Below, piece by piece: positions 6,714 through 53,430 of a stretch of 64,000 bases of DNA. The notes below the pieces were generated by a model. That model was not told the DNA's origin and did no database searches. It worked only from the letters and a program-made list of their open reading frames with translations. This DNA comes from Malania oleifera. Its lineage: Eukaryota > Streptophyta > Magnoliopsida > Santalales > Ximeniaceae. Both the position numbers and the translations under genes were made by a program. The stretch lies in the NCBI RefSeq assembly GCF_029873635.1, contig NC_080423.1, positions 111,555,087 through 111,619,086 of the forward strand, in the 5' to 3' direction. How positions within the stretch are numbered: the stretch's first letter is position 1; every line of letters begins with the position of its first letter.

Positions 6714-9169
6714 TATAAGAAACTACCGACAAAAATTTAATAAGTGAAGTAATACAGTAAGAGAAAAGATAAGAGAACGAAGAAAGAACAAGAAAAAGAT
6801 GAAATTTTTAAAAAGGGAGATCTACAGAAATTCGTCAACGAACCCAGCGTCTTCGTCGATGAATGTCTCGTAGATTTCGTTGATGAAGTACACCTGTCTT
6901 GTCGACAAAGAGATACCGAGAGTATGATTTCAGGACATCAGGATTCGTTGACGAATCTAGGTCTTCGTCGACGAACTCCCTTTTTGGTTTCGTCGATGAG
7001 TCCACGTGTCTCGTCGTTGAAGACACGTGGCTAGCGGTTTATAAAAGGTGGGAAACGGGTTTTTACGAGAGAAAAACATGTTTTCTCTCCTTCTCTCTCT
7101 AAAATTCAAAACCCTCACCTTCTCTTATGATTTTTGCCTCGTTAAAGCCTGGTTTGATGATCAAAAACCGCCACGAGGTTCGTGGGAAGATTCTCTACAA
7201 TTTAACTGGAGCAGATTTTCAATTTGGAGTTCTGAGGTTTCATCCCAAAACCAGGGTAAGTAGAGCATTTTAGAGTTTAAAGGTTAATTTGGAGTATATA
7301 TGGCCTAAGAAATACTAAATGAGAATTATTCTGGGATTTTGTTAATTTAGTTGGGAAAATATGAATTTCAGGGTTTCAAGTTGTGAACGCCACGAGTGTA
7401 GGGTTGGGTTTATTAGTAAGCCTCTCAGTAAGTCAGGTAAGGGGAATAAATTATAACAGTATTTTCTGAAATTACTGGTTGAATGAATATGTGAAAAGGG
7501 AAAATATGATATTTTTACCTTCGAATATTATGATATGAATATTAGACGAAATTGTGTGGCATGTGAGCAATATTGAAATGTGATGTTTTGTGATATGAAA
7601 TATGATTATAGAAATGTTTTCTATAATGAATAGGGAAATATGAGAATATGTTATGTAATATTGAAAAATGTGGAACTTTCCGGAATGAGATATATATATA
7701 TACTATTATGAGAATGGAATGAGTATTGAAATGATGAGAAAGAAACAAGAATGATGTGAATAGTGAAATGTGATATATACTATTGTGATAAGATATGAAT
7801 ACTAAAATATGAGTATGAAAATGTGAATATTGCTATGTAAATGCTGCAATGTGAATGTTGAAATATGATTACTGGAAATGTGAATATGAAAATGTGAATA
7901 TTACAGTGTGAATACTGCAATGAAAATGTTGAAATGTGAATACTGAAATACGACTATGAGAATGTGAATATTGCAACGTGAATACTATAATATGAATGTG
8001 AAATGTGAATACTAGAATGGTGAATATATAAAAATGTGGAAAATTACAATGTGAATACTGCAAATATGAATACTGGAATGTGAATGAGAAATGTGAATGA
8101 TGAACCCTGATGGACGATTGTTGATATTGAGCACGGTACCGTTGCTAGTGGTGATTACGTGCAATCACATGGACTCGTGAAGCGTGTGGCGTGATAGTCG
8201 AATGAGCCAGTGAGAAGGGTAGTTTTGCCCTTTGGGTCCGAACCAAGGTTTATGGCAGACCATTCGTACTACAAACGAGTATATGGATTGTTTATTTTGA
8301 TCTAATCAGGTAGGCCAACCGTGGTTAGATTCAGCCATCAGGCCGCACAACCTTGACCATGGGGGCAAGCATGGTGTGGAGAATATCCTCAAGGCAGCCA
8401 TGAGTTACAAACGTGGATGTACTAGTTACTGAGGACACTCATGTGCGAGATGATGAAATAAAATTGAAAGTGAAAAGAAAGAGTGTGAGTTTAATAACAT
8501 AAATAATTAAGGCGAATTAGAACTCTCCGCCTGAGGGTTTATTGAGTAAGGTGAGTGCCTTGATAAGTATCAATTGTAGTCAAACCCGAGTTAATCAGGT
8601 AAGGTTACAAATGATATCAGATCAGAGGGGAGCTACATGTATGGGTGTGTAATCTCCCCTATCCTCGGGAACTTTCGCTGATAAACATGGGTTCAATATG
8701 AATGAGATTTAAAAAGAGAATTAAAGCTTTGAAAAGCGTGTGTTGTATATCTATATGATTATAAATGCGAAATTGGTATATGTTTCTCAGAAGGTATTAT
8801 CAATGAAATGAATATATGTTATGATATAATGAAACTCATACTACCACACACTATAAATAATTTATTCCGTCTTACTGAGATAGGTCTCACCCAATCATTT
8901 AAATACTTCAGGAAACCGTAATAGGCCTGGAGATAGAGCTCCAAGATAAAGGGAAGTTGATACCCTGATTAGACAGGGTGAGTGTTTTTTTTGAGTTAGG
9001 GATGTATGTTTCCCCTAGAGTTTGATTGATTTTTGGGGATGAGTTAGATATGTATCTATATGTTTATAGATGTTTAGTACTCTGGTTATCTGTATTTTGG
9101 ATGGTGTGTATGTATGGTCTTTCACTGTTAGGTATGTATTTATATGATAGACTAATTACCCACTATCCT
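6714..9169 (+). mobile_element. LTR I, left part (host of chromovirus B)
   Basis: A probable LTR starts near 6714 (TATAAGAAAC, a decayed TGTAAGAACC-like start). In order it has: a GTCGAC palindrome array (6828-7020), a TATA box (TTTATAAAAGG near 7040), a CT-rich leader, CAGGGTAAG near 7255, an AATGTGAATA-type array (7800-8095), GGTACCGTTGC near 8135, the inverted repeat TGAGA-TAGG-TCTCA at 8876-8889, and ACTCTGGTTAT near 9080. B interrupts it, and it resumes at 34938. C-runs at both outer ends (before 6714 and after 35068) may be its target duplication. Confidence 0.65.
6828..7020 (+). promoter_or_regulatory. GTCGAC palindrome array of LTR I
   Basis: About seven copies or near copies of TTCGTCGACGAA lie directly upstream of the TATA-like TTTATAAAAGG. 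The copies are spaced about 20-35 bases apart with differing filler between them. Confidence 0.6.
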
Positions 9170-10948
9170 TGTAAGAACCCAACCCGTGAGATATGCAGTA
9201 AATAAATAAGAAAAGGGTAAAACAGTAATTTGAGCAAGCTTCATCGATGAAACTCCAGTTTCGTCGACAAAGGCTCTTCTAATGTTCAACGACAAAATGC
9301 AGAGGTTTGATGATGAGTAGAAGCCGAGAGATTTTGAGAAATCCAAAAATCTCAGGCTTGTCGACAATGCCACCGCAACGTCGACGAATTTCCTTCGCTA
9401 GCTCATCAACGAGGTTAGCCGAGTCAAAGGATCTATAAATATCTTTTTCTTTGCTTCTTGTCTAAGATATCAAAATATTCTCTCTCTCTCTCTCTCTAGA
9501 AATCGAAGCTCCACTCTCTCTCTCTTGATTTCTTCTCCGTTCGTCATTAGAATCGACGATCCGACGTTATTGTGGGGATCAGCAAAGGAATCTTTATGCG
9601 TTCTGTGGAACAGATCTTCGTTTTTAGGTCTTCAGGTTTTGACCCAAAAATCGAGGTAAGACTTGGTTTTCATTTCCGTTTCACTAGATCTGTAGAGAGT
9701 AAGATTGTAAGTAATTATCGTACTGTGATTTATAGGTTTTGGGAACTCGGTTCGTTGTTTAAGATCCGTAGAGTTTGTGTTAGATTTTTGGGGAAAGGTA
9801 AGGGGATTCTGTTTATATCGGTTATTTTTGAAATTGGATTTGGTAGAACTGCGGTTCACAATCCTGTGTATGTTTTAGCTACTTATTTGGGGAAGTCTAA
9901 CAAGTAAAATTACGAGATTTTCAAGTTACAATTTTTGGGAAAAAGGGGGCGTCAGGTTGCATCATTGGTTTCGTTGGAAAACCGAGGATATATTGTTGAA
10001 TATATTGTGTTATGGAGATGGTTGTGCCTTGACTTGTTTTAAACTATATTTTGAAAATCATGATTTTGTGATTACCAAATGAGTGTGGAATGAATTGTTA
10101 TATGAATATGCATTGAGTTGTGATTTGCTGAAACGAGATATAGGAATGTGTGTTCTGAATTGTTCCAGGTTATGAAAGAGTGTCCAACTTTATATCTGAG
10201 GGAGTGAAATACCACCTACCAATGGCAAGAGTGTCCGGCTTTATATTCAAGGGTGTGAAATATCGCCTCTTATCGACTGATCACCGAAGGGTGTAGATCC
10301 ACCAGATGTACCGATACAATGCCATGGGAGCTTGGGGCTACGCCATGTGTCGGGGACGCTGTGTAATGCGGGCCAGCTTCGTGCCGAAGGGTGTGACGAC
10401 ACCGGGTTACTTGATCATGTGTGTGTTGAGAGCTATACTGGAACTATTTTGTGGAAATACTAGAACTGAACTGTGTATGTTTTATGTCATGATAACACTC
10501 ATATACCACACACCGATATAACCTGATTTTGCCTTACAGAGATGTGTCTCACTCCTATCGTACTTACATATTTTCAGGTCCTTCGAGTAACCGGAACTAG
10601 CATCCTTGTGTGGGGAGCGTGATGGTCGATTTACTGCGTAGAGTACTTGTGTAAGTACTTGGACTATAATTGGGTTGTCGTTTTGCGTATTGCTGGCACC
10701 TTAGGTTATGTTTTGTATTATGGAGCTTAGACTTTATTTGTATAGACTCTGGTATGGTTCTATGTATGTATAGAATGAACTTTTCCGCTATGTATATGTC
10801 AAGTATGTAAATGTGTATAGGGTGTACGGGAACCCCACGAGGTTGGACCCTCATTCATTATATTATCATGTGTGTTTTGTATGATATAGGGACAAGTTAG
10901 GTTACTACATCACACCCTGGGGCCTATTGCCGGGTTTGGGGTGTGACA
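9170..10948 (+). repeat. 5' LTR of chromovirus B
   Basis: It runs from TGTAAGAACCC to GGGGTGTGACA. It contains palindromes at 9238-9425, a TATA box (CTATAAATATC near 9432), a CT run near 9480-9500, GAGGTAAG near 9652, the inverted-repeat block near 10534-10552 (decayed), and ACTCTGGTAT near 10746. Confidence 0.88.
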
Positions 10949-11239
10949 ACTTGGTATTAGAGTTAACCAGGTTGTTAGGTCTTGCAAACTTGGTTAGGCG
11001 TAGCTATGTGTACATACTAGAGTATAGGATATAAGAAATGGGTAGAATAGGTCATTGGTTCTTTTCTTGCTAGACAGGGACTCATTGGTGGTGTTTTGTG
11101 TTTTTCCTCGAATGAAAATTTCAATAAAATCACGACAAACCATTGAAGGTTTTGTGTCGGTGTGATAGGACAGACCTGGACTCGTGAGATTGGTAGTTAA
11201 CATGATTAGACATCAATGATTGTGTAAACTATATAGGAG

Positions 11240-13516
11240 TGTTGACCCTATGGGTCATATCCTGTTTTGATTATGACAAATACTCAGGTATTTAATGATT
11301 GCCAAGTTGATGTGCAGGTTTATCTTGGCAGTATCCTATGATGGCACTCAGAGACCCGGAGGAAAACGAAGACTCTGAAGACCCTTGATATAATTGATTT
11401 GTTGTAATTTATATTCGGGTCTATAATATTTAAGTAGGAAAGGTCTGTAATAGTAAATAGGTCTTTGGTTTGTAATAAGCTCACACACATCACATGCATG
11501 ATAATACATAAGCTCAAACAAACCATGAATGAGAAAATGACCATAGAAAGACCTTAGGGTGTAAAGGTCGACTGACACCTGACTTTTTCGGTGTCTTCAA
11601 ATTGGACCCCAAGTGCTTCTAGGACACTCATACTTTCACATATATTTGCTAGGCACTTAAATAGGGCTTTATTGTATTAAGACGGGACCGAAATGCACAC
11701 TCGCTGCACTTTCGGTCGATCGGCCAAATCAGTTCATTTTTGGCCTGGTCGACCGAACCATCCTCGGTTCAACTGTTGACCTAGGTCCCGGTCGACCGAG
11801 CCCTTACAGTTCATTTGACCCCGGTCGACCGAACCACCTGGGAGTCAACATTTTGACCTCCCGGTCGACCGACCAACTTTGTACTCCAACTACTTGGTCG
11901 ATCGAAAGGTCCTCGGGAGAATTCCCAGCGTTCTGGTCGACTGAACCATGCAGTTCAAAAAGGCCCGGTCGACCGAACCTCAGAAATTTGGAAAATCGCC
12001 TTGCCTCGGTCGACCGACCACTCAATTCAAAATACCCCTGGTCGACCGAGCCACTTGAGTCCTGGTCGACCGGACCTCTCGGGTTGCTCCTATTTTTTTT
12101 ACCGCGATTAAATGGTTTAAGCAGGGTTAAAATATTTGAAAGGTCATTAAACTTTCCTAATTATTCCAAATAGGTCCCCAACGGTTATATTTCAAGGGTT
12201 GTCTATAAATACCCCCTCATTTGAGATAATTAGCATTGGATTAAAAATATTGATTAAGAGAAATTCTCTGAAAATCCCAAATCCTATAATACTTATATCC
12301 AATCCCCATTCACTCCTGCTTACCTTCTTCGATTTCTTAAATTCTCTGTAAGTCGATTGAGTGTTTATATTTAATAGGTTTGCTCTCCTATTCATATTTG
12401 ATTGATTTATTTTCATTGAGAGCCAAACCTAAGTATTCTTAGAGACTTTGTTAATAAGTCTATCCTAAGAAGACTTTGATAGATCTTCTAAGATTTGCAC
12501 CTTCATTGCAACATCTTAAGAAGATTGTATTTGTTTTTGGTTGCAAAACATTTTCAAAATACTTTCAAATATCTAGTGTGCTTTGTCTTGATAAATCTTT
12601 GAAGAGATATTTGTTTGTGTGAGAAAAATCTTTGTTGCAATATTCATTGATTTATATCTTTAGTTGAATACAAAGATTAAACTCTTTTTGCAAACCAAAC
12701 TTATACATTGCTAGAACTTCATATACATATATGTATTGAGAAAACTTGTTGATTGAAATATATGAAGTTTGGATAATATCTTTGTTTGAGCACTTAGATT
12801 GAATACATCTTGTGATACAAAGATTGTAGTGTTCACATTCTCACGCACTGATTACAACGATAGTAAATCTATTTGAGAGTAGACATCTTAAACCACACTG
12901 AGCTTACATATTGAATCATATTGTGGTGTATGTGATATTGCGCGTATCTGGGTACACATCTGCTTTACTTGAAAGCTTATTCATTGTACCATTTGATTGT
13001 ATTTCAAATATTGTCTTATTTCCAGGCACGGGCCTAAAGAGGGAGACTAGCCCTGGAATAGTCCCGGATTGGCTTAGACCCGGTTAGGAAAGCTAGGTGT
13101 GTCGTCCTGTTAAGGCGTGTAGGTTGAGGTCAGCCCCGCTAATTGACCTAGTTAAGGTTGAGGTCAGCCCTGTGTTAATTTGACCTGGTTGTAAACAGTG
13201 ACGCTCCACCCTTAAGTGAGCCTTTAGTGGAATCCTCGAGCTTGCGAGCTAGAGGCGGGGACGTAGGCACAGTTGGCCGAACCCCGATAACATTTCGTGT
13301 GTTCATTTACATTTCCGCATTTTATATTTACCGCACATGTATGTTATGGGTGAATGATGCGTATAACTTAATTTCCACATTATATTTATCTACGCATTTG
13401 GAAATTGCATAGACTGACCATAGGTTGAGTATATATTGGTGTTGGATAGATTATCCTAGGAGAAAAAGTTTTAAATTCCAATTCACCCCCCTATTGCGAA
13501 TACACCAATTCTAACA
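11240..13516 (+). mobile_element. Solo LTR, SIRE-like Ty1/copia
   Basis: A 2277-base LTR runs from TGTTGACCC to CAATTCTAACA and is flanked by perfect 5-base duplications AGGAG (11235-11239, 13517-13521) inside B's leader. It has a palindrome array at 11710-12075, a TATA box (CTATAAATACC near 12202) and an AATTCACCCCC block near its end, typical of SIRE/Maximus-type copia LTRs. No internal region remains, so it is a solo LTR. It is related to LTR K at 36363-38330, which lies on the other strand. Confidence 0.85.
11710..12075 (+). promoter_or_regulatory. Array of GGTCGACCGA palindromes
   Basis: About ten copies of (C/T)GGTCGACCGA are spaced 23-45 bases apart, for example near 11746, 11790, 11822, 11862, 11967, 12007, 12040 and 12064. 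They lie about 130 bases upstream of the TATA box at 12202. Each is a palindrome centred on GTCGAC, as in the unrelated gypsy LTRs of this window. Confidence 0.8.
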
Positions 13517-14577
13517 AGGAGGTAGGAATTCTAACTGATTCCTATTCTATGTTTCAGAATGGAGCCCAAGGACAACAACTTGGATAGTGGCTCTAAGGAG
13601 ACTACGAGCAATGAGTCTCCTTCAGTGCCTCGAGGGCTGACGAGGCAGGTTATACGGGAGATCGGATGTAGTGTTAGGAGATGTGAACGTTCTCCTATTG
13701 CTGCGAGGTGTACCATTGAAAGGTTCACACGTATGCACCCTCCAACGATTTCATAAGGACTCGATCCGATGATAGCAGAGGACTGGGTCTAGAAGATCGA
13801 AAGGATTCTGGAGGTCCTACACTGCACAGATAAGCAGAGAGTCCTTTATGCCACCTTCCAGCTATCTGGGGAGGTCGGGCGATGGTGGATTGCGGTGAGT
13901 CTGCTGGAGAAGCAGAGAGCCGATCCTACAGAGATGACACGGAGCTGCTTGAAGGAAGTGTTCTTTGAGAGATACTTCCCGGCCTCCACACGTGATGTTA
14001 AGGTGGATGAGTTCTCTGTTTTGACACAGGGAGATATGATGCTGCAGGGGTATGCTGCTCGGTATATAGAGCTATCCCGTTTCGCTCCGTGCCTAATCTT
14101 GAACGAGTAAGAGAAGATTCAGAGGTTTGAGAAGGACCTAAGGAAAGACATCCACAAATTAGTGGGTATGCTGCAGATCCATGAGTTTTCAGTTTTGGTG
14201 GATAAGGCCACTGTGATCAAGACCGACATCCGAGAGGATGAGGTGGACCAAAAACCGAAGAAGAGGCTAGTGTCATCAGGTTCTCGTTAGGGATCATGGA
14301 AGAAGAGGAACCATGGCTTGAGTTACCGCTAGAATACCGTCAGGGTTCTCAAGTGGATTAGTCACGCGATTGTTGTATCAGATGCCATAGATGGCATAAA
14401 GGTGAGTGCCGGTCATTTGGGGGTAATTGTTACACTTGTAGAAAATTAGGCCACATGACTTGTGACTGCCGCGCACCGAAGAGAGACACACCTACATCCA
14501 GTGTGAACATAGGTAGCAATCAGATACATCGGGGGACCATCCAAGCAAACACAGCTCCGAAGAGGGTATATTCTCTT
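13517..14577 (+). mobile_element. gag region of chromovirus B
   Basis: Gag-like reading frames begin at the ATG near 13559 (MEPKDN) and share FQLSGEVGRWW and RFTRMHPP with element A's gag. A nucleocapsid zinc knuckle of CCHC type lies near 14430-14465 (GHMTCDC). It is broken and is interrupted at 14578 by LTR C. Confidence 0.85.
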
Positions 14578-15029
14578 TGTAGTGACCCGAAGAATAATAA
14601 CATTTTAATAATAAGAGGGAGAGAAAATAGATATAGAAATAGAAGGAGACCGCAAACTTCGTCGACGAACACAGGGTTTCGTCGACGAAGGCTTCAAGGA
14701 TTTCGTCGATGAGAAAATACCGAGAAGGGTTCTGAGGCAGCCTGAATTTCATCGACAAATACAGGGTCTCATGTTGCGGGAAATTGCCAAGCTTCGTCGA
14801 CGAACATAGGGTTTCGTCAACGAAGGCTTCAAGGATTTCATCGACGAACACAGGGCTTCGTCGACGAGAAAATACCGAAAAGGGTTCTGAGGCAGCCTGA
14901 ATTTCGTCGACGAATATAGGGTCTCGTCAACAAAATTTGTGAAGGACTCGTCAACGAAGAACAAGCTCATCGACGAAATCCCTTGTTTTATATATACGAA
15001 AATCCGTGAATTATTTCATTTTTAAGAAA

Positions 15030-15067
<38 letters not shown>

Positions 15068-15720: not shown

Positions 15721-15752
<32 letters not shown>

Positions 15753-27181: not shown

Positions 27182-27624
27182 CGAAGGGGAGAGAGAGAGA
27201 GGAGAGAGTCAGCTTCTTTAGGAAGTTCAAAATTTGGATTTTGCTATTTATAGAGCAGGGGATTCGTCGACGAGCCACGTCATTCGTCGATGAATCCTTC
27301 AATAATTTTGTCGTTGAAATTCAGTTGGCTCAAACGTATCTCGGTATTTCTTCGTCGACGAATCCCCTGTATTCGTCAACGAATTCTCTTATACCCTCAT
27401 CGACGAGTCCCCTGTATTCATCGATAAATTTTATTATACCTTCGTCGACGAATCCCCTGTATTCGTCAACGAAGCACTGATGATTTCCCCTTGGTTATTC
27501 CTTCCAAAGTGCAATGTCATCGACGAACACAAACATCGACGAAGTCGACTGCCTCCTTCTATTTTCGGTTTCCATTTTCCTCTCTTTTTATTATATAAAC
27601 CTCATTATTATTCGGTTCGTTACA
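26820..27624 (-). mobile_element. LTR E, 5' part
   Basis: On the minus strand this is the LTR start (TGTAACGAACCG, ending at 27624), with a GTCGAC palindrome array (27255-27535), TATA-like CTATAAATAGC near 27243, a long GA/CT microsatellite (27125-27200) and a leader resembling 53570-53690 of LTR N. The right target copy GTCAG at 27625-27629 matches the left copy at 22191-22195 exactly, proving that the two E pieces belong together. Confidence 0.82.
27125..27210. repeat. (GA)n microsatellite in LTR E leader
   Basis: About 28 GA units are followed by a second interrupted run. Equivalent CT runs stand in the same leader position in LTRs C (15030), N (53485, 53518) and B (9480). Confidence 0.95.
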
Positions 27625-33269: not shown

Positions 33270-34937
33270 TGTAAGAACCCGACTCGTGAAATATGAAATA
33301 AATAAATAAGAAAAGGGTAAAATAGTAATTTGAGCAGGCTTCGTCGCCGAAGCTAGAGTTTCATCGATGAAGGCCCTTCTAATGTTTGGTGACAAAATGC
33401 AAAGGTTCGTCGATGAGGAGAAGCCGAGAGATTTTGGGAAAACCAAAAATCTCAAGCTTGTCAATGAGGCCACCGCAACGTAGACGAATTTCCTTCACTG
33501 GCTCATCGACGAAGATGCCGCCTCCTCGACGAGGTTGGCTGGGTCAAAGGCTCTATAAATATCTTTTCCTTTGCTTCTTGGCTAAGATATCAAAATACTC
33601 TCTCTCTCTCTCTCTCTCTAGAACTCAAAGCTCCACTCTCTCTCTCTCTCTTGATTTCTTCGCCGTTCATCGTTAGAATCGACGATTCGACATTTCTGCA
33701 TGGATTAGGAAAAGAATCTCTACGTGTTCTGTGGAACGGATCTTCATTTTGAGGTCTTCGGGTTTGGACCCAAAAATTGAGGTGAGACTCGATTTTCATT
33801 TTCGTTTCGGTAGATCTGTAGAGAGTAAGATTGTAAATACTGTGATTTATAGGTTTTGGGAACTCGGTTCGTTGTTTAGGAACCTAAAGTTCATGTTAGA
33901 TTTTTGGGGAAAGGTAAGAGGATTCTATTTATATCGGTTATTTTTGAAATCGGATTTGGTAGAACTATGGTTCATAATCCTGTGTATGTATGTTTTGGTT
34001 ACTTATTTGGGGAAATCTAACGGGTAAAATTATAGGGTTTTCACGTTACAATTTTTGGGAAAAAAGGGGCGTCGGGTTGCATCTCTAGTTTCATTGGAAA
34101 ATCGAGGATATATTGTTGAATATATTGTGTTATGGAGATGGTCGTGCCTTGACTTGTTTTAAACTGTATTTTGAAAATTATGATTTTGTGATTACCAAAT
34201 GAGTGGGGAATGAATTGTTATATGAATATGCATTGAGTTGTGCTTTGCTGAAATAAGATATTAGAACATGTGTTCCAAATTGTTTCAAGTTGTGAAAGAG
34301 TGTCCGGCTCTATATTCGATGCTGTGAAATACCACCTGTCAGTGGCAAGAGTGTCCGGCTCTATATCTGAGGGCATGAAATATCACCTCTTACCGGGGAC
34401 GCCGTGTAATGTGGGCCAGCTTCGTGCCGAAGGGTGTGACGACACTGGGTTGCTTGATCATGTGTGTGTTGAGAACTATACTGGAACTATTTTGTGGAAA
34501 TACTGGAACTGAACTGTATATATTTTATGTCATGATAACACTCATATGTCACACACCAATATAACCTAATTCTGCCTTATCGAGATGTTTCTCACCCCTA
34601 TTGTCCACATATTTTCAGGTACTTCAAGTAACCGGAACTAGCGTCCTTGTGTGGGGAGCAAGGTGGTCGGTTTACTACGTGGAGTACTTTTGTAAGTACT
34701 TGGACTGTAACAGGATTGTCGTTTTGGGTATTGCTGGCACCTTGGGTTATGTTTTATATTATGGAGGTTAGACTCTATTTGCATAGACTCTACTATGGTA
34801 CTATGTATGTATGGAATGAACTTTTTCGCTGCATATATGTCGTGTATGTGAATGTGTATAGGGTGTACGGGTTCACAAGGACAGGTTAGGTTACTACATC
34901 ACACCCTGGCGTCCATTGTCGAGTTTGGGGCGTGACT
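33270..34937 (+). repeat. 3' LTR of chromovirus B
   Basis: It pairs with 9170-10948. It has palindromes at 33335-33540, TATA near 33556, a CT run at 33598-33618, AGAGTGTCCGGCTC units near 34298 and 34350, and a decayed inverted repeat at 34581-34594. It is followed by the target copy ATCCT. Confidence 0.88.
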
Positions 34938-36100: not shown

Positions 36101-38330
36101 TCGTTTTCATGATTGGGAAACTTTGCATTTTGAAACATTTTCAATGGGATATGATTACTTTAACAATCACTTTCCAAATCCTCCAATCATCTGATTTAAC
36201 AAAAATGCTAATTTTCAATGTCCACAAGGTAAAAACTATAAAAGAGAAGTAGTGGAGGATTTGCAAAGGATTGACCCTCAAACAGGGATACTCCAAATAT
36301 GAGCTGTTGCAAACTGTATGCAAATATGGTTAAACTTATTGCAATCGAGCTCTGATACCAATTGATGGGAATGGTGTAATTACAAGAGGGGGTGAATTGG
36401 AGATTTAAAACTTTTTAGGTCAGTTTAAGATCTCAGATAGTATTTCACAACTTAGGATTTTTCTAAGCAGTCTCAATTCCCCCAATAAATCAAGTATGCA
36501 AATATTTAAAACATATGACATTCTCTACAAATTAAATATTTTCATACAACAAACACATCATATCCCCATTAAGATTTAAAGCGTGTATGTGAAATAATTA
36601 GCTATGTGTGCTGACATACACATGTGCAGCATATCTTATTTAATTTAAATGTGTGCAGATAAATAATTATAACTATAAATGAACAAGCATACACATATGA
36701 AAATTGAAGTGTAGAAAAATAAATGAGATAGACACACACACACACACACACACACAATTTGTTATTAAGGTTCGGTCAAACCAGCCTACGTCCCTGCTTT
36801 TGGCATACCCTCCAAGGATTCCACTATCCCTGCTCACTTAAACGGGCAGAACAAGAGCCGTTTACAACCTTTCCTTACGGGGCAAGGTAAACCCTAGCTA
36901 CACTTACTAGGCGTAGCTATAACTCAACAACACTTTATGGGTGGTGCCCACACCCAACTCAATTACCAAACTAAGCTCAACTAGTCTCCCTTACGGGGCG
37001 GAGACTCCCTAATTCAATTTACGAGCTGAACACAACCAGTCTCCCTTACGGGGCTGAAATTCCCCAGTTGAATTTACGAGCGGAACCCAACTGGTACAAT
37101 AAAAATATTTTTGTACAAAATACATACTTCTAAATACAAGAAGAGATGTACAACAATAAAGCTCCTAAAATGCACTCTCTAATGATATGAAATAAGATCA
37201 AGGAGTAAAAGTGTTTTGCTTAATATAAAATTTTCACTCTTTGAAAATAATGCATATGCTAAATACTCAAAGATTGAAACCCTATAAAATATTTCTCCAC
37301 AAAAATATTTATCAAAGGAAAACAATATAAAAAACCTTTAATCTTACTCTCAAGGATTGTTTTTCAAAAGTAAAAGCTTGAGAGAGTAAGTGCTCATAAA
37401 TAAATGCCCAAATAAAATGCTCTTTTCCAAAATATTTTTTTGAAATTAATAATAGGAAAGAGAGTTTGAGAGAGTGTAAAACTTTACCCCAAATAAGATT
37501 TTGCAATAAAAATATTTTTCGGGGAACTTTGATTAAGAAAAGTTTTGAGAGAATTTTAAAACTAATCAAAGTTACTAATTGTGCTAATGAAATGGGTATT
37601 TATAGACTCTCAAAAAAATATGACCATTGGGGACACGCTCGTCATTTTGGAAAAAATTAAGTGAAAAATTAATGACGATTAGCGTTTAAAAAATAAGTCA
37701 ACCCAAGAGGTTCGATCGACCGGAGCAAGGGTTGGTTGGCTGACCTCACTTAAAGATTTTGAATTTACTTTTGGGTTTGGTTGGCTATGGGAGGCGACCG
37801 GTCGGCTGACCAAGGCAATTTTTTGAACCTTTGTAGGTTCGGTCGACTGAGCCTAAGTCTGAATTGCTGGTTCTTAAGGTCCAGTCAGCTAATGGCATTT
37901 TGACCTAAGAGATCGGTAGGTCTAGGCATGTAGAAAGTCTAAGTTTTAAAGTCGGTTGACCGGAAGCAGTGTTAAAAAATGGTCAGTCGACCGAGCCTAG
38001 TCAAACATTTGACTTATGGCTGGTCGGTCGACTAATGCACATTTGAAAAAGATTTTGTATGAAAGTTTTAGGTCCATTAAGGTCATTCTATGATTATCTG
38101 ACCTTTTCATCCATATCATGCAAATGCATGCATTATTACAAACCAAGGATATAAAACAAAAATGCATTACAATAGAGCAAATATGTCTTATTCTTTTTCC
38201 TTTTTGCTCTTCTGACTTCATGGAATGTGTCTGATTGTATGAGCTTTTAAGTTCATCAAGCCTCCGTTTTCTTTTCTCTTATGTGCGTGTTTTGAAATAA
38301 AACCTGTTCACAAACTAAATAAATACATAA
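36100..38330 (-). mobile_element. SIRE-like copia element K: leader and most of 5' LTR
   Basis: On the minus strand the LTR runs from 47168 (TGTTG) through 47116, skips element A, continues from 38330 to 36363 (ending CCCATCA), and is followed by a primer-binding site complementary to initiator tRNA-Met (36349-36360). The leader enters a gag-like start near 36320-36141 (DDWRIWKV). The LTR shows decayed GTCGAC palindromes (37700-38040) and TATA (CTATAAATACC, minus strand, near 37598). The rest of the element is not recognisable in the window. It is broken. Confidence 0.75.
36733..36756. repeat. (AC)n microsatellite
   Basis: About twelve AC units lie inside the K LTR. Confidence 0.95.
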
Positions 38331-40207
38331 TGTAAGAACCCGAACCATGATAACTGGGTTTAAATAAGTTAGAGAGGGGCAAATTAGGAATTTGGCAGAT
38401 TTCGTCGACGAAGCCATATTTCGTCGATGAAGCCTTTGTTCTTCTCGTTGAAGAAATTCAGAGACTTGTCGACGAGGAGAAGCCAAGGAGTTTCGGAAAT
38501 CAGGAATATCAGGATTCGTCGACTAGGCCACCGATACATCGACGAAGTCAGTGGAAGATTCGTCGATGGAGGCACCATTTTGTCGACGAATTGAGCCGGG
38601 TCAAAGGGCTATAAATAGAAAATTTCCTTACTTCTTCATTAAGAAAACTCAATTCTATCTCTCTCTCTCTCTAGAACTCTCCCTACTCTCTCTCTCTCTA
38701 GATTTCTTCGCCGATCGTTGTTAGAATCGGAAATCTGAAGTTACCACGATGATCGTGGAAGGATTCTCTACGATTTCTACGGATCGGAATCTTGTTTCGG
38801 AGATTTTCGGGTTTTGGCAAAAAATTGAGGTAAGACTCGGTTTTCAATTCTGATCCAGTAGTTTTGTAGGTAACTATCTTGTGAGCATATTCTATACTGT
38901 GATTTGTAGGTTTTGGAACTCGGTTTGCTATTTAGGGGCCTTAGAGTTCGGGATTTGTTATTCGAGGAAAAGGTAAGGGGAACTATGTTTGTATTGGTTA
39001 TTTTTAAAATCAGACTCGGTGAAACTGTAGTTCATGGTCCTGTGTGTGTTTTGGCTACTCATTTGGGGGAATCTAACGGGGAAAACTATGGGTTTTTCAT
39101 TATTATAGTTTTGGGAAAAAGGGGGCGACGAGCTGCATCCTTGGTTTTGTTGAAAACCGTGAGTATATGTTGATTTATACTGTGATATTAGGATGACCGT
39201 GCCTTGACTTGTTTAAACTATATTTGTTTGAAAAACCATGATTTAAATTACCAAATGGGGTGGTTTGTTTGGTTATATGAGCATGCATGTGTGTGTGATA
39301 TGTTGAAATGCTAATAGGAACGCGGTTATGAATTGTTCCAGGTATTGAGTGTCCGGCTCTATATCTAGGGGCGTGTGTTTACCGCCTGCCATGTGGGTAG
39401 GAGTGTTCAGCTCTATATCCGAGGGCGTGTGTTATCGCCTGCCATGTAGGCAAGAGTGTCCGGCTCTATATCCGAGGGCGTGAGCCTATTCCAACAGATC
39501 AGGTTGAAGGGTGTGGATCCACCAGTTATGCGCTGGTACAATGCCATGGGAGTCGAGGACTAGCCATGTGCTGGTGGCACCGTGTTCGCGGGTTGGCTAT
39601 GGGCCAAGGGCGTATGTCGTGGGCCGGCTTCGGGCTGAAGGATGTGATGACACCAAGATTACTGATCATGTGTATGTGTATAAGTGTGTGTGTGCACTGT
39701 GGAAACTAGTACTGGAATGCATTTAACTGCGTGTATGTTGTATCATGATAACACTCAAATGCCACACACCGATATAACTTGTGTTCTTCCTTACTGAGAG
39801 GTGTCTCACCACTGCTGTACGTACATTTTTTACAGGTCCTTCGGGTAATCGAAACTAGCGTCCTGCTGTAGGGAGTGTAGTGGCCGGTGTACCGCATTTA
39901 GCGCTGGGTAAGTGCTAGGACTGTAATTTTGGTGGGTTGCCATTTTGGGATGTATTGGGCACTCGTTTGTACGTTTTGATTGAGCATTGTGTCTGCTCTT
40001 GTATAGACTTTGGTATGGTACTCTATATGTATGTATGGTTGTTCCACTGTGTGTATGATTGTGTTTGGATGTGTTTAGGGTGCCTGGGAACCCCACGGGG
40101 TTGGACCCTCATCCTTTGCACTATATCTGTGATGATTTGTATGATACAGGGACATGTTAGGTTACATTCTCACCCTTGGGTCCCATTTCGGTGTTCGGGG
40201 CGTGACA
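38331..40207 (+). repeat. 5' LTR of chromovirus A
   Basis: It has palindromes (38398-38592), TATA (CTATAAATAG near 38612), CT runs (38656-38700), GAGGTAAGAC near 38828, three AGAGTGTCCGGCTC units (39350-39490), the inverted repeat TGAGAGGTGTCTCA (39794-39807) and ACTTTGGTAT near 40007. Confidence 0.93.
38398..38592 (+). promoter_or_regulatory. GTCGAC palindrome array, element A 5' LTR
   Basis: About eight copies or near copies of TTCGTCGACGAA occur, last near 38580, about 20 bases before the TATA box at 38612. The 3' LTR has the matching array at 45315-45490. Confidence 0.7.
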
Positions 40208-40530
40208 GCTTGGTATCAGAGCTAACCAGGTTACTAGATCTTGTAGACTTGGCTAGGCTTAGTTGCGAGTACATACCAGAGTATAGGATGTGGATATGGG
40301 TAGAGTTGGTTGAGAGTTGTTTAGTTGCTAGACCAAGATTTGTCGACTGTATTCCGTGTTTTTCCTGGGATGACGATTCCAGTAAAAGTAGGGCAGATCA
40401 TTGATGACTTTCGTGTCGGTGTGATGGGACAAACCTAGACTTGGCAAGGAGTAGTTAACGAGATTAGTGTAGATTATTGTGTTAACTGTATCTGTTATAG
40501 GGATACTGATAGATTCCTATTGTACTGCAG

Positions 40531-41480
40531 AATGGAGCCTAAGGATAATAACCTGGGAAGTGGCTCCGAGGAGACTGCGAGTGATGAGTCTCCTTCTATG
40601 CCTCGAGGTTTGACGAGGCAGGTATTACGGGAGATCAAGCGGAGTGTGAGGAGACGCGAGCGCTTTCCTACTACTGCGGGGTGCACCATTAAAAGGTTCA
40701 CACGCATGCATCCTCCGATGTTCTCTGGAGGACCTGACCCGATGATAACAGAGGATTGGGTGGAGAACACTGAGAGTATCTTGGAGGTCCTGCACTGCAT
40801 GGTTAGGCAGGGAGTCCTTTATGCCACCTTCCAGCTATCTGGGGAGGTGGGTCGATGGTGGACTGCGGTGAGTCTGCTGGATAAGCAGAGAGCCGGTCCT
40901 GAGGAGATGACGTGGAGCCGATTCAAGGAGGTGTTCTTTGACAGATACTTTTCGGCTTTTATACGTGATGCGAAGGCAGATGAGTTTTCAACGCTGACTC
41001 AAGGGAGTTTGACGATGCAGGGGTATGCGGCTCGATACGTAGAGTTGTCCCGCTTTGCATCATGTATGATCTCGAGCGAGTATGAGAAGACTCGAAGGTT
41101 TGAGAAGGGTTTGAGGAAGGATATCCGTAGACTGGTGGGTATGCTTCAGATCCATGAGTTCTCGGTGTTGGTGGATAAAGCCACGGCGAACAAGACTGGT
41201 ATTTGAGAGGACGAGGTGGATCAGGAATCGAGGAAGAGGACAGTACCTTCTGGTTCTCAGACAGGATCTCATTAGTGATCGTGGAAGAAGACGAGCAAGG
41301 GCTCGGGTTACCATCAGAATACCGAGCGCCAGGATTATCAGATAAGCCAGACTGGTGGTCGTTGTATCAGATGTTATCGGTGGCACGAGGGTGAGTGCCG
41401 GTCATTTGGGGGTAACTACTATAATTGTGGCCGGCCAGGCCACATGTCTCGTGATTGTTGTGCACCGAGGCGAGACGTGC
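40531..41480 (+). mobile_element. gag region of chromovirus A
   Basis: A gag frame starts at 40531 (MEPKDNNLG) with the retrotransposon-gag core around GRWWTAVSLLDKQRAG and WSRFKEVFFDRYF. A CCHC zinc knuckle (YNCGRPGHMSRDCC) lies near 41420-41462. The region is preserved well enough to identify but is broken. Confidence 0.9.
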
Positions 41481-41559
41481 CTACAGTTAGTGGGGACCGA
41501 GGGAGCAATCAGATACCTCAGGGAACCATTCAGACGAATATAGCTCTGGCCAGAGTATA

Positions 41560-44500
41560 CTCTCTTACTCCAGCGGACGCTGAGCATGCAGGTAACGTGG
41601 TGATAGGTACCTTGTTATTGCTTTCGAATAAAGCTTCTGTTTTCTTTGATTCGAGTGCAACCCATTCCTTTGTATCTATGAATTTTGTGGGACGGTGTGG
41701 GGTTGAGACTCGAGACATGAATGAGGTGTTATCTGTTACTACACCATCTAAGAGTGTATCTTTCTGTAGGAAGATGTGGGTAGACTGCCCAGTGGTAATT
41801 CAGGAGAAGCTGCTACCGACGAATCTTGTGGTATACGACATGTCAGGGTTCGATGTCATTATGGGGATGGAGTGGGTGTTCTCCAGTTATGCTGTGATCG
41901 ACTATCGTAGGAAGGTGGTAGTTTTCAAACCTCCTAGGGAGCAGGAGTACGAATTTGTGGGATCGTGTGTGCGTCCAGCACCACAGATTCTGTTAGCACA
42001 CTACAAGTGAGGAGGCTACTCTTGGACGGATGTCAGGGGTACCTAGCTTGTATGAAGGAATCGCCACGGGATGTATTGAGACTCGAGGACATTCGGGTAG
42101 TCAGTGAATTCCCAAATGTGTTTCCAAATGATTTACCCGGTTTACCTCCAGATTGTGAGGCAGAATTTGCGATAGAGTTGCTGCCTGGTAAGGCACCGAT
42201 CTCTAAAGCTCCTTACCGGATGGCTCCAGTAGAACTTCAGGAGTTGAAGGAGCAGTTGCAGGAATTAATGGACAGGGGATTCATTCGACCTAGTGTTTCG
42301 CCCTAGGGAGCTCCAGTACTGTTTGTGAAGAAGAAGGACGGGTCGATGCGGATGTGCGTTGATTACCGTGAGATTAATAAGGTGACTATGAAAAATTGAT
42401 ATCCTTTACCGCGTATAGATGATCTCTTTGACCAGTTGCAGGGCACGCGGGTCTTTTCGAAGATCGACTTGCGATCAGGATATCATCAGGTGAGGGTCAA
42501 AATGGAGGATGTAGCAAAAACTGCTTTCCGAAACAGATATAGCCACTGTGAGTTCTTAGTCATGCCTTTTGGGTTGACGAATGCTTCGGCGGTGTTCATG
42601 GATTTGATGAACAGGGTTTTCCATGAGTACCTGGATCGGTTCGTAGTGATAATCATTGATGACATTCTGGTTTACTCGAGGAGTACAAAAGAACACGTGG
42701 AACATTTGAGGTTAGTGTTGCGGGAGAAGAAGCTGTATGTTAAGATGAAGAAATGTGAATTCTGGTTGAGTCAGATTGCGCTCTTAGGCAATGTGGTTAC
42801 TAGGGATGGTATATCAGTTGATCCCAATAAGATTGAAGCTGTGGTCGACTGGGTAAGACCGAAGAATGTGCAGGAGGTTTGAAGTTTTCTGGGACTGACA
42901 GGTTACTATCATCGATTCGTAGATGGTTTCTCTAAACTAACTGGACCTCTGACACGATTAAGTAGGAAAGGAGTGTAGTTTGAATGGATCGGTGATTGCG
43001 AGCAGTGCTTTCAGAAGTTGAAGCACTGGCTGGTTACTGCTCCAGTTTTGACCATTCCTTTGGGGGATGGTGGGTTTGTGATTTATAGCAATGCATCTCT
43101 AAAAGGCCTTGGATATGTGCTCATGCAGCAGGGCAAGGTAGTAGTTTATGCCTCTCAGCAACTGAAGGAATATGAGAAGAATTAACCTACGCATGATTTG
43201 GAATTGGCTGTTGTGGTATATGCATTGAAGATCTGGCGACATTATCTGTATGGGATGCTGTGTGAAATCTTCACTGATCATAAGAGTCTTAGGTATTTCT
43301 TCACACAGAAGGAGTTGAGCATGAGGCAGAGGCAGTGGCTAGAGTTGTTAAGGACTACGATTGCATGATCAGTTATCACCCAGGGAAGGCTAATGTGGTA
43401 GCTGATGCATTGAGTCAAAAGTCAGGGCCTACGGCTGTATCTGCAGTTGTAACTCAGTGTCACATCAGACGGGATTTGGAAAGCTTAGGTATAGAGTTGG
43501 TGGTTGGTGATCATCAGGCTTATCTTGCTGGGTTGGTGGTCCAACCAACCTTATTTGAGCGTATAAAAGCCGCGCAGGCTAGTGATGTAGAGTTGGCAGA
43601 GGTTATGGAAAAGGTACAATAGGGACTGGCTACAAAGTTTAATATCTCTAAGGGGGTGTATTGAGGTTTGGGACCATATTGTGTGTTCCGAATGATGATG
43701 AGATCAGAAGGACGATTCTAGAGGAGGCGCAACGTTCTATGTATACGGTACATCCTGGTAGTACGAAGATGTATCGGGACTTGCACGAGATCTTCTGGTG
43801 GTCTAGTATGAAAAGGCAGATTGCTCAGTTCGTGGAGCAGTGTCTGACGTGTCGGCAAGTGAAAACTAAACATCAGAGGCCGGTAGGGCCGTTGCAGCCT
43901 TTGCCTATTCTGGTGTGGAAATGGGAGCATATTTTCATGGATTTTGTGACCGGTTTGCCACTAGCACTTCACGGGCAGTATGCTATTTGGGTGAACGTGA
44001 ATAGATTGACAAAATATGCTCATTTCATACCAATGAAAGTTGGCTATCCTTTGAGTAGGCTAGTAGATTTGTATGTGCATGAGATTGTGAGAATGCGCGG
44101 AGTACCGGTGTCCATAGTATCAGATCGGGATCGAAGGTTTACTTCTCGATTCGGGATGAGCTTGCAGGAGGCATTGGGGATGAAGCTTACTTTCAGTACA
44201 GCGTTCCACCCCCAGACTAATGGATAGTTGGAGAGGACGATACAGATATTGGAAGATATGTTGTGAGCTTGTGTGTTGGACTTCGATGGTAGCTGGATAC
44301 AATTTATGCCACTTGTAGAGTTCTCTTATAACAACAGCTTCCAGTCTAGTATCAGGATGGCACCGTTCGAGGCTTTGTATGGTCGGAGGTGTCAATCTCC
44401 TTTGTGTTGGGATGAGGTTGGTGAACGTTAGGTGTTAGGACCTGAACTCATGCAGCATACGTCTGAGAAGGTGGGTTTGATCTGGGAGAGGATTAGATCA

Positions 44501-44990
44501 ACTAAGAGTCGGCAGAAGAGTTATGCAGATGTTCGCCGCCATGAGTTAGAGTTCGAAATGGGAGGTAAGGTATTTCTGTGTATCGCTCCGATGAACAGGG
44601 TGATGAGATTTGGGAGGAAGGGCAAGTTGAGCCCAAGGTATATCGGACCATTCGAGATACTTGAGCAGGTGGGTCTAGTAGCCTACAAGATTGCATTACC
44701 TCCAGCACTTTCGAGGGTCCACGATGTGTTTCACGTATCCATGTTGAGGAGGTACGTGTTGGATCCTTCGCATGTTATTAGTTATGATGAGTTGGAAATT
44801 GGGGATACTTTAGCATATGAGGAGATACCTGTTCAGGTTCTGGACCGTAAAGTTCAGAAGCTTCGTACCAAAGAGATACCGTTAGTGAAGGTATTGTGGC
44901 GAAACCACGAGATTAAGGAAGCTTCTTGGGAACTGGAAACGGAAATACGTCAGAAAGTATCCACAATTGTTTTGAGCACTTGTACATGAT
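41560..44990 (+). mobile_element. pol region of chromovirus A
   Basis: Domains in order are: retropepsin-like protease (about 41600-41990), reverse transcriptase (about 42040-42880, with [10 protein letters not shown] near 42650), RNase H (about 43000-43400), integrase zinc finger and core (about 43730-44400, with WKWEHIFMDFVTGLP near 43918) and C-terminal chromodomain (about 44830-44960, IPLVKVLWRNHEIKEASWEL). The chromodomain and purine tract place it among chromoviruses, probably the Tekay clade. It is broken, with no complete polyprotein. Confidence 0.92.
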
Positions 44991-45245
44991 CCTACTATGG
45001 GTTAGGATAGGTGGTTAGTCATTGGAAGTGTGTGTGTGTATTGTGAATTCCTGAGACAGTTGTATATGTAACCACGATATTCCTCCGCCATAAATAAGGG
45101 TATGTATGTGTATGTGTATGGTGGGACTGCGCTGTAGTAGTCGCCAGTTTCTTGGTTGTAGTTCGTATATGTGTTTGATTGTATGTGTAAGTTTGTGAAT
45201 GAGAGATGGCAAATTTCAAGGACGAAATTTTTGTAAGGAGGGGAG

Positions 45246-47110
45246 GTTGTAAGAACCCGAACCATGATAACTAGGTTTAACTAAGTAAGAGAGGGGCAAA
45301 TTGGGAATTTGGCAGATTTCATCAACGAAGCCTTTGTTCTTCTCATCGACGAAATTCAGAGACTCGTCGACGAGGAGAAGCCGAGGAGTTTCGAAAATCA
45401 AAAATATTAGGATTCGTCGATGAGGCCACCGATTCATCGACGAAGTCAGTGGAAGATTCGTCGACGAAGGCACCATTTCGTCGACGAATTGGGCTGGTTC
45501 AAAGGGCTATAAATAGAAATTTTCCTTACTTTTTCATTAAGAAAACTAAATTCTATCTCTTTCTCTCTCTCTAAAACTCTCCCTACTCTCTCTTTCTCTA
45601 GATTTCTTCGCCGATCGTTGCTAGAATTGGAAATCTGAAGTTACCACGAGGATCGTGGAAGGATTCTCTACGATTTCTACGAATCGAAATCTTGTTTCAG
45701 AGATTTTGGGGTTTTGGCAAAAAATTGAGGTAAGGCTCGATTTTCAATTCTGATCTAGTAGTTTTATAGGTAACTGTCTTGTGAGCATATTCTATACTGT
45801 GATTTGTAGGTTTTGGAACTCGGTTTTCTGTTTAGGGGCCTTAGAGTTCAGGATTTATTATTCGGGGAAAAGGTAAAGGGAACTATGTTTATATTGGTTA
45901 TTTTTGAAATCAGACTCAGTGAAACTATGGTTCACGGTCCTGTGTGTGTTTTGGCTACTCATTTTGGGGAATCTAACGGGGAAAACTATGAATTTTTCAT
46001 TATTACAGTTTTGGAAAAAAGGGGGCGAAAGGCTGCATCCTTGGTTTTGTTGAAAACCGTGGGTATATGTTGATTTATACTGTGATATTGGGATGGCTGT
46101 GCCTTGACTTGTTTAAATTGTATTTGTTTGAAAAACCATGATTTAGATTACCAAATGAGTGTGGTTTGTTTGGTTATATGAGCATGCATATGTGTGTGAT
46201 ATGTTGAAATGATAGTAGGAACGCGGTTCTGAATTGTTCCAGGTACTGAGAGTGTCCGGCTCTATATCCAAGGGCGTGTGTTTACCGCTTGCCATGTGGG
46301 CAAGAGTGTCCGGCTCTATATCCGAGAGCGTGTGTTATTGCTTGCCATGTAGGCAAGAGTGTCCGGCTCTATGTCTAAGGGCGTGAGCCTATTCCGGCAG
46401 ATCAGGCCAAAGGGTGTGGATCCACCAGTTATGCGCTAGTACGATGCCATGGGAGTCGAGGACTAGCTATGTGCTGGTGGCACCATCTTCGCGGGCTGGC
46501 TATGGGCCAACGCCGTATGTCGCAGGCCGGCTTCAGGCCGAAGGGTGTGACGACACCAAGATTACTAATCATGTGTATGTGTATGGGTGCGTGTGTGCAC
46601 TGTGGAAATTAGTACTGAAATGCATTTAACTGCGTGTATGTTGTATCATAATAACACTCAAATGTCACACACCGATATAACCTGTGTTCTTCCTTTCTGA
46701 GAAGTGTCTCACCCCTGCTGTACGTACATTTTTTACAGGTCCTTCGGGTAACCGGAATTAGCATCCTGGTGTTGGGAGCGTAGTGGCAGGTGTACCGCGT
46801 TTAGCGCTGGGTAAATGCTAGGACTGTAATTTTGGTGGGTTGCCATTTTGGCATGTATTGGGCACCCATTTGTACGTTTTGATAGAGCATTCTGTCTGCT
46901 CTTGTATAGACTCTGGTATGGTACTACATATGTATGTATGATTGTTCTACTGCGTGTATGATTGTGTTTGGATGTGTTTAGGATGCCTGGGAACTCCACG
47001 TGGTTGGACCCTCATCCTTTGTTCTGAATCTGTGATGATTTGTATGATATAGGGACATGTTAGGTTACATTCTCACCCCTAGGTTCCATTTCGGGGTTCG
47101 GGGCGTGACA
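45246..47110 (+). repeat. 3' LTR of chromovirus A
   Basis: It pairs with 38331-40207 over its whole length and carries the same palindrome array, three AGAGTGTCCGGCTC units (46250-46385), an inverted repeat at 46697-46710 and ACTCTGGTAT near 46909. It is followed by target copy CATAA. Confidence 0.93.
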
Positions 47111-47168
47111 CATAAGATCCTTGCACTTTGTCAGCATCAAAACAGGGATCAGACTCAAAAAATCAACA
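47111..47168 (-). mobile_element. Start of K's LTR beyond element A
   Basis: Read on the minus strand from 47168 it gives TGTTGATTTTTTGAG and then CCCTGTTTTGATGCTGACAA, matching the start of the SIRE-like solo LTR at 11240. It shows that A inserted near the 5' end of K's LTR. Confidence 0.78.
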
Positions 47169-49101: not shown

Positions 49102-49159
49102 ACCTACCTACATCCTCCTCCTCCTCCCCAGCCAGTTTTGGAGGTAGTTGTGATTGATT

Positions 49160-51986: not shown

Positions 51987-53098
51987 GTAACGACTTGCCT
52001 ATTTTACCATATATATTTTTTCACATAAAGACATAACATCATTCATAATTACCATGTTTCCCTATTATACTGATATAAACATGGTCCGCCCAGATACGGG
52101 TACTGGGGACATACCTCTCAAACAACTTTGACACCTAAGCAGCAAGAAACGTAATTTACATACAACTATCCAATCAATCACAATACCAGAGTTCTATTAA
52201 ATCCACTAATTATATATATACAATCATCTACCAAAAGATTAAAATGTATCCTAGGGCCATTTCCCAAAGTAAATCTGACCCTAGCATAACAACTCACCCT
52301 TCTGACAGGGTAGCACAGTCCAACTCTACCGTTGCGGAGCTCTATCTGCTTCTCTACCCGGATTTCCTAAAATGTTTTAATGTTAGGGTGAGATACCTCT
52401 CAGTAAGGGAAATAAACTAGTATCAGTGTGTGACAACATGAGTATTTTCGTGTTGTACATATAAATAGTACATAAAACATAATTGGAAAAATCTGACTAT
52501 ACTAAATTGAGTAAAATATGATTTGTCAATTCATAATATAACACATTGCATACTGTACATGGAAAACATCTTATATAACTGTACTATACTGAAATAACAT
52601 TCAGGATGGATAGCTAGCTGATGTCATGTCTTACCCTCACATGACTGGGTTGTGTGGCCCTAAGGCGAGACCTAGCAATGGTTGGCCGACCATGCTAGAA
52701 CAAACATAAATCTGTAAGTAAGATGGGCTTCCCCCACCTGGTCCCGAACTGCCAAGGGAACATCACCACTCTACACTGAAGCCACATCGACTGCCATCTC
52801 CCACACAACTAGTTGTGTGGTAGCACTATTATAATTCTGAACATATAGCTACAGTACCGTGCTCCTGAAAATTGAACTATATCATATCATCCGGGTTCTG
52901 ATAACAATAATATGTTTCATATATTGAACATAATATCTGACATGATAATATTTCATGAATTCTGTAATATCATACATGAATATGGCATCTGCGCCAACAT
53001 GAATCATGACATCTGCGCCAGTATAACATAGCATGTAATCTTGGCATCTACGTCGGCATATCATAATATACTAAACATGAATTTCTTACACTATTTTT
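51987..53098 (-). mobile_element. LTR P, 3' part
   Basis: On the minus strand it ends GGCAAGTCGTTACA (51987). It has the inverted repeat TGAGAGGTATCTCA (52388-52401), ACTCTGGTAT near 52178, GGGCCACACAACCC near 52645, GGTACTGTAGC near 52853 and three units of an own array with GGCGCAGATG (52984-53060). The 5' half of the LTR is absent; LTR N begins directly at 53099. Confidence 0.72.
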
Positions 53099-53164
53099 GT
53101 AACGACCCGAATAATAATGAGGTTTATATAATAAAGAGAGAGAAAAATGGAAACAGGAAACAGA

Positions 53165-53430
53165 AGGAGGTAGTCGACGAAGTGTTCGTCAACGACATTA
53201 CATTTTGGAAGGAAAAACAAAAAGGGGGATCATTAGGGCTTCGTCGACGAATCCCCTGTATTCGTCGACGAGGGCTTTAGAGAATTCATCAACGAAGACT
53301 GAATTTCGTTGATGAAAAATTATCGAGAGAGGTTTTGAACTGACTGAATTTCGTCGACGAGGATTGAATTTCGTCGATGAAATTAATGAAGGATTCGTCG
53401 ACGAATGACGTGACTCATCGACGAATTCCC
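53165..53430 (+). promoter_or_regulatory. GTCGAC palindrome array of LTR N
   Basis: About nine copies or near copies of TTCGTCGACGAA occur, the last ending a few bases before the TATA box. Unit order and fillers (TCCCCTGTATTCGTCGACGA) also occur in LTR E on the other strand. Confidence 0.7.

Follow-up and report, generated by a model that had tools for sequence, protein, structure and literature searches.

Why should the long terminal repeats (LTRs) of two retrotransposon superfamilies carry series of short palindromes with the same core hexamer, GTCGAC, ahead of the TATA box? The question is raised by a 64,000-bp stretch of the Malania oleifera genome (NC_080423.1, positions 111,555,087 to 111,619,086, hereafter the window), in which such arrays are found both in Ty3/gypsy chromovirus LTRs (T-type arrays) and in Sirevirus-type copia LTRs (S-type arrays). 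The original prediction assumed that gypsy and copia LTRs share no ancestry, and proposed convergent recruitment of a host dimeric DNA-binding protein, or a shared silencing or methylation target. As regards the array, that premise is probably wrong, since the chromovirus version also occurs in a Sirevirus family located outside the window. We think it probable that gypsy chromovirus LTRs and this one Sirevirus family share a single cassette, which was likely transferred by recombination and on which a predicted dimeric protein would dock. The Sirevirus unit of the window, YYGGTCGACCGA, we regard as belonging to a different array, one that has been described before and resembles the cassette in no more than the hexamer GTCGAC.

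The observation itself is secure. The window contains 51 GTCGAC sites where 5.57 are expected and 100 shuffles gave at most 10, and the arrays could be located before TATA boxes in LTRs of both superfamilies, as predicted; with up to 2 mismatches allowed, the window has 64 sites for TTCGTCGACGAA and 14 for TCGGTCGACCGA. In the 1.49-Gb genome, exact TTCGTCGACGAA sites number 37,861 and exact TCGGTCGACCGA sites 17,197, compared with 67 and 47 for the same patterns read backwards, which lack CpG and so are weak controls (a CpG-matched control palindrome would be TTCGACGTCGAA). In 15 stretches of 10 kb at positions set beforehand (150 kb), GTCGAC occurs 72 times against 7.5 expected and leads all palindromic hexamers in enrichment once AT-only ones are set aside; among 10-base palindromes, with the same exclusion, enrichment is highest for CGGTCGACCG (n=18) and TCGTCGACGA (n=8), and CAGACGTCTG, from a third array type (U) with another core, occurs 4 times. 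Fifteen of the 72 sites are isolated, with no other within 250 bp, but at least 3 of these (in the sampled loci L028, L030, and L034) fall in arrays called by unit similarity, leaving 12 against the 7.5 expected. Nor are GTCGAC arrays equally common outside LTR promoters: 9 of the 10 clusters in the sampled stretches lie in LTRs, as judged by LTR similarity or by a TATA box and leader, and the tenth (L035, 2316) is placed in an LTR by the chromovirus box only.

The chromovirus arrays of the window are anchored by one element with both LTRs, bounded by a target duplication and encoding, in gypsy order, the domains Retrotrans_gag, RVP_2, RVT_1, and Integrase_H2C2, that is, a gypsy gag, protease, reverse transcriptase, and integrase. 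Its LTRs are 90.7% alike over the aligned part, and a chromodomain (PF00385) at the expected integrase C-terminus is a weak match, 18.9 bits against a cut-off of 25.1. The remaining chromovirus-type arrays were assigned by LTR similarity to this element or to one another.

38331..47110, plus strand: chromovirus-type Ty3/gypsy element comprising gag, pol, and two LTRs, flanked by the target duplication CATAA (38326-38330 and 47111-47115); 3′ LTR at 45248-47110
38401..38590, plus strand: chromovirus-type array (B) of the 5′ LTR (LTR start 38331), 8 units, spacing 19-24-21-50-20-24-20
45318..45488, plus strand: chromovirus-type array (B) of the 3′ LTR
6831..7021, plus strand: chromovirus-type array (D), 8 units, spacing 21-24-22-46-20-25-21; mid box GAGATACCGAGAG; TATA at about 7040
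9240..9388, plus strand: chromovirus-type array (A), decayed, 4 units (at most 3 mismatches)
14658..14977, plus strand: chromovirus-type array (C/E), 12 units, mid box twice
27263..27543, minus strand: chromovirus-type array (C), 10-11 units
28076..28240, plus strand: chromovirus-type array (C), 7 units; TATA at about 28252
33340..33533, plus strand: chromovirus-type array (A), decayed, 6-7 units
53170..53425, plus strand: chromovirus-type array (C), 9-10 units; TATA at about 53437

Together with loci fetched from elsewhere in the genome, the T-type set comprises 22 arrays and 175 units, 21 of the arrays being chromovirus-type and one belonging to the Sirevirus locus L029. The consensus unit, YTCGTCGACGAR, is a 12-bp palindrome without a CGG-CCG core; when perfect it holds three CpGs, not one or two as had been thought. 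Arrays have 4-12 units (at most 3 mismatches), a wider range than the 7 to 11 or so first proposed for chromoviruses. A TATA match accompanies 21 of the 22 arrays, and in 17 of these 21 the last unit ends 8-20 bp upstream of it. Neighboring spacings alternate between 19-22 and 24-25, as seen in 67 of 69 classed pairs, and many arrays (units with at most 4 mismatches) form two blocks of four, at about 21-25-20, then 45-51, then 20-25-20, the middle spacer beginning after unit 4 with the box RARATACCGAGAG or a variant. The candidate cassette would thus typically consist of eight 12-bp palindromes spaced at about 21-25-20, 47, 20-25-20, with the box between its halves.

Within the unit, T2, T5, A8, and A11 are kept in 97-98% of copies, and among 19 chromovirus arrays the identity is 84% at non-CpG unit positions, 47-48% in spacers, and 47-55% in the sequence following the TATA box. 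This conservation of non-CpG unit positions over spacers suggests a predicted sequence-specific binder, and the palindromy would point to a dimer. Among the inner positions of chromovirus units, change is commonest at the G and C of the GTCGAC core, because these belong to CpGs, and CpG transitions make up 152 of the 296 differences among T-type units; in the two flanking CpGs it is the inner base that is lost more frequently (75 vs 32 for the outer, p = 4e-5), whether by context or by constraint, and the GTCGAC core is therefore not the best-kept part of the chromovirus unit.

The same units turn up in a copia element. The LTR that holds the T-type array of L029 agrees over its first 57 bases with the solo Sirevirus LTR of the window (described below) at 84%; across L029 and the adjoining L039 this LTR, running from C1:15000749 downward, ends with a poly-C tract and GGTATCAGAGC, and is followed by a PF14223 gag, gag_pre-integrs, rve, and RVT_2. 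By its copia gag, integrase, RVT_2, and poly-C LTR end we classify the element as a Sirevirus. Nor is it a solitary curiosity: of 4182 first-look candidates for the start of the L029 LTR, 40 were scored, and the 39 others are 94-96% identical to it over 307-310 bp. Among the 12 of these 40 that were examined (ranks 2-13), 11 carry T-type units; L048 is disrupted by an insertion that follows its first unit, and L046, L049, and L051 lack internal parts, while the complete copies have the spacing 21-25-20-47-20-25-20, as in chromovirus arrays.

The box follows the units. Its register can be placed in 10 of the 12 copies, of which 4 read AAAATACCGAGAG, with the chromovirus box RARATACCGAGAG exact, and the rest near variants. 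The four AAAATACCGAGAG boxes score 19.5, a value equalled by 1 of 299,640 sampled 13-mers, which itself lies in a chromovirus-type array, and the scores of the other six are matched by 2, 2, 8, 25, 26, and 366 of the 299,640; by comparison, the best scores in 11 S-type and 4 U-type arrays range from -1.3 to 11.0 with every position scanned. For 5 of 17 chromovirus arrays, the in-register spacers (box included) are similar to those of each of four Sirevirus copies, with z > 2 every time. When the sequence flanking the array in one copy (L041) was compared, 41 of 42 tests gave no similarity. A unit, a lattice, and an in-register box common to gypsy and copia LTRs, with no consistent similarity outside them, argue for one cassette of common origin, and common origin by transfer is likely to be a better fit to the sequences than convergence. 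The cassette could have passed between the superfamilies by recombination, either through template switching of co-packaged RNAs or through gene conversion at the DNA level. The simpler direction would make chromoviruses the donor and the Sirevirus the recipient, since the arrays occur in several chromovirus subfamilies but in only one of at least four Sirevirus-like types. The array would then act in both as a docking site for a putative dimeric DNA-binding protein, for which IDD zinc fingers and methyl-CpG proteins are conceivable candidates, and which would either activate the TATA box close by or protect it; a VANC-like protein that counters silencing, encoded by the element or by the host, would fit as well (PMC10398659). 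We lean slightly toward the broader proposition that the whole promoter array moves as a cassette between gypsy and copia elements, and that both superfamilies depend on one predicted DNA-binding factor.

Several results weigh against common origin or against the proposed binder: i) units were chosen by similarity, so that their conservation is inflated and part of the contrast between units and spacers is built in; ii) symmetric unit positions show no coupling (six pairs in T-type units, Fisher p 0.21-1), and compensatory change therefore gives no argument for selection on the dyad; iii) the box of L029 itself is weak, 50 of the 299,640 13-mers being as good, and the 11.0 scored by L019 equals the score of the two weaker Sirevirus copies, though out of register; iv) 12 of the 17 chromovirus arrays give no consistent in-register spacer signal, and a comparison of the L029 array with 28 others, made regardless of register and after masking the units, brought 1 of the 28 to 2/200, which leaves unit, layout, and box as the basis for homology, and each of these may be under constraint because it is functional; and v) one of the 42 flank tests (window 53170, downstream) reached 0/100 shuffles. 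We take this last match to be native because a corresponding stretch is present, by eye, in the sister LTR L027, whose start and whose sequence beyond the TATA region align with L029, but which has TTCAGACGTCTGAA-like units in between.

At least four states can be told apart among the Sirevirus-like LTRs of this genome, the chromovirus cassette being one. Palindromes of a third kind, TTCAGACGTCTGAA-like and spaced at about 21-22, form arrays in Sirevirus-like LTRs at L025 2859-3081, L034 6199-6462 and 9033-9191, and L027 3308-3611. On the minus strand of L033 (5998-9950) lies a copia (Sirevirus) pol with a Transposase_32-like gene (PF20167) in the env position, and in the LTR which follows it no GTCGAC palindromes were seen. 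Around position 1420 of L001, on the minus strand, the part of a chromovirus LTR that reaches from close to its start as far as the TATA box is directly joined to a Sirevirus LTR from inside an S-type array; this is a single locus, and perhaps a deletion product.

What, then, of the copia arrays in the window?

11240..13517, plus strand: solo Sirevirus-type (copia) LTR; target duplication AGGAG at 11235-11239 and 13518-13522
11712..12073, plus strand: S-type array, 11 units YYGGTCGACCGA (at most 3 mismatches), spacing mostly alternating 32-33 and 39-43
12204..12210, plus strand: TATAAAT of the solo Sirevirus LTR, about 130 bp past the last unit
36400..38330, minus strand: second Sirevirus-type LTR (K), limits approximate; S-type array at 37712-38035, TATA near 37604

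The solo LTR starts where it was first placed, at 11240, and ends one base later, at 13517 rather than 13516; K is, as had been proposed, a second copia LTR with an array. The solo LTR carries a CACCCCCC tract close to its 3′ end and has no coding part, and its superfamily is assigned through a relative in L033, where the LTR ends before TGGTATCAAAGCC and a copia gag (PF14223) and a second such LTR begins after that gag. The S-type consensus YYGGTCGACCGA derives from 173 units in 18 arrays, with C at position 2 in 96 units and T in 77. Spacings of 31-34 and 37-43 alternate in 82 of 83 classed pairs, and a TATA match, present for 12 of the 18 arrays, follows the end of the array at a distance of 107-160 bp. 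The two kinds of array thus agree in preceding the TATA box, as had been said of their position, but chromovirus arrays nearly abut it whereas S-type arrays end well upstream, and the spacings differ, being 20-21 and 24-25 in the former against 32-34 and 37-43 in the latter.

The copia half of the story is already known, because Bousios et al. (2010) described palindromes before the TATA box of Sireviruses, and the consensus in grape, CGGTCGACCG, is the window unit (PMC2829016). In their account, at least eight palindromic repeats (called RM) are situated in the LTR's upstream half and precede a conserved TATA box; the RM core is CGG-CCG in 12 of 13 elements; the RM is termed Sirevirus-specific among the Ty1/copia elements compared; and no single RM binding factor could be named (PMC2829016). 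The S-type array of the window has palindrome halves with CGG-CCG, at least 8 copies, a position before TATA, and (via L033) a copia LTR. T-type arrays lack the CGG-CCG core and are carried by gypsy elements, the exception being the L029/L039 family.

That both superfamilies bear arrays ahead of the TATA box stands, as does the conservation of chromovirus units far beyond their spacers, but GTCGAC is not the conserved Sirevirus core, which is CGG-CCG (PMC2829016). Convergence of the particular pair originally compared, TTCGTCGACGAA and CGGTCGACCG, is not supported as stated. The two agree in six bases, and with 16 possible CG-centred palindromic hexamers two such palindromes will share one by chance 1 time in 16; a blastn comparison of 3 S-type with 6 T-type U3 regions gave a best E of 0.086, that is, no U3 homology. 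We rate as evenly balanced the case that GTCGAC is common merely by chance to two CpG-rich, CG-centred palindromes. Besides the arithmetic, the hexamer is central in the grape repeat only, among the 13 published Sirevirus repeats (PMC2829016), and the S and T arrays differ in lattice and TATA distance; on the other side, GTCGAC heads the non-AT palindromic hexamers of the sampled genome, and the U-type, with its other core, is the rarer in the counts given above. Odds of 1 in 16 are not small, and a single factor may or may not read both S and T units.

For the cassette proper, the alternatives to transfer differ in how much of the evidence they can absorb. Chromoviruses and the Sirevirus family might have built the array separately, each needing the same host protein with a fixed geometry; the position of both arrays before TATA, the conservation of units over spacers, the unrelated sequence outside the array in all but one of the flank tests, and the lack of relation between most spacers are all as this account would have it. 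It would nevertheless require that a single 12-mer, a 13-bp box in register, and one lattice of 21-25-20, 47, 20-25-20 each arose twice, among Sirevirus-like relatives with other palindromes and other lattices, and we find it improbable. Somewhat less so, though still unlikely, is that the array acts chiefly as RNA, with unit hairpins in U3 transcripts feeding small interfering RNAs (siRNAs) and methylation as proposed for maize Sireviruses, in which an excess of small RNAs is reported to map to the palindromes (PMC10760457). The predicted RNA folds strongly, with z of -5.5 at 14650-14985 and -8.6 at 11700-12080 and 0 of 100 shuffles as good in each case, and the LTRs bear the mark of cytosine methylation, 120 of the 151 differences in one LTR pair being transitions, in keeping with the CpG share of unit differences noted above. 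From this mark we take it that silencing acts on these LTRs, and it may use the array. Any palindrome would fold, however, and yet one 12-mer is kept across diverged chromovirus LTRs; tolerance of G-U wobble predicts an excess of sense C>T over G>A, and chromovirus units have 70 C>T against 82 G>A, so that wobble was rejected for them, while the excess in S units (125 vs 73) includes 77 of the 125 at position 2; and silencing alone would leave the element with no reason to keep the array. CpGs of the array are kept no better after insertion than others (12 of 22 in the array vs 42 of 67 elsewhere, in one LTR pair), which gives no sign of protection.

A functionless by-product of replication slippage seems to us the least credible origin by a wide margin. 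Units do stand in regular series, and the tandem repeat finder called some arrays (14793-14867 and 27351-27473), but it passed over most; slippage would copy spacers along with units, whereas spacers diverge and units do not, and the position before TATA is fixed. Transfer of one cassette thus remains the reading we prefer, and if it is true, LTR enhancers are parts exchangeable between superfamilies. The genome would itself have run the swap experiment, placing the same cassette in two promoter contexts for whatever reads the palindromes, and its tens of thousands of datable copies would allow binder, silencing, and decay to be followed in one genome.

We wish to stress how these arrays compare with known systems. 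Like the Sirevirus RM they are multi-copy palindromes before TATA, with the grape CGGTCGACCG identical to the copia unit of the window (PMC2829016); unlike it, they also occur in Ty3/gypsy LTRs, where the units lack CGG-CCG, stand in a fixed two-by-four layout, and are joined by a box, and this gypsy-type array is found in one Sirevirus family as well. The palindromes of maize Sireviruses (Bousios et al. 2016, as cited in PMC10760457) also cluster in the LTR cis-region with strong predicted RNA structure, but have a different sequence, CACCGGACNNNGTCCGGTG, and come with small RNA and methylation data, whereas the arrays described here are read from the DNA sequence. The VANDAL/VANC system offers a possible model of function, in that non-coding tandem repeats of a transposon are read by a sequence-specific protein which counters silencing; VANDALs, however, are DNA transposons with an element-coded binder and fast-diverging repeats (PMC10398659), and here we deal with retrotransposons and a binder that is only predicted. 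In a literature search largely outside subscription journals, no title or abstract was found that reports arrays of this sort from the LTRs of chromoviruses or an exchange of them between chromovirus and copia LTRs.

Paired units were sought in viral contigs and 0 were found. GCTAGC clusters in L026 were set aside as belonging to a long tandem repeat which, by eye, does not precede a TATA box. Elsewhere in the window, a 540-codon open frame at 49154-50776 encodes a pentatricopeptide repeat protein like At5g61800, its best named hits being eudicot at about 60-69% identity; tandem repeats of 29-32 bp with CGTACG, separate from the palindrome arrays, lie at 29079-29312 and 54101-54283; and a tandem repeat of about 41 bp (beginning ACGTGGCCCACACAGGCACC) is present in 5 copies at 58825-59045.

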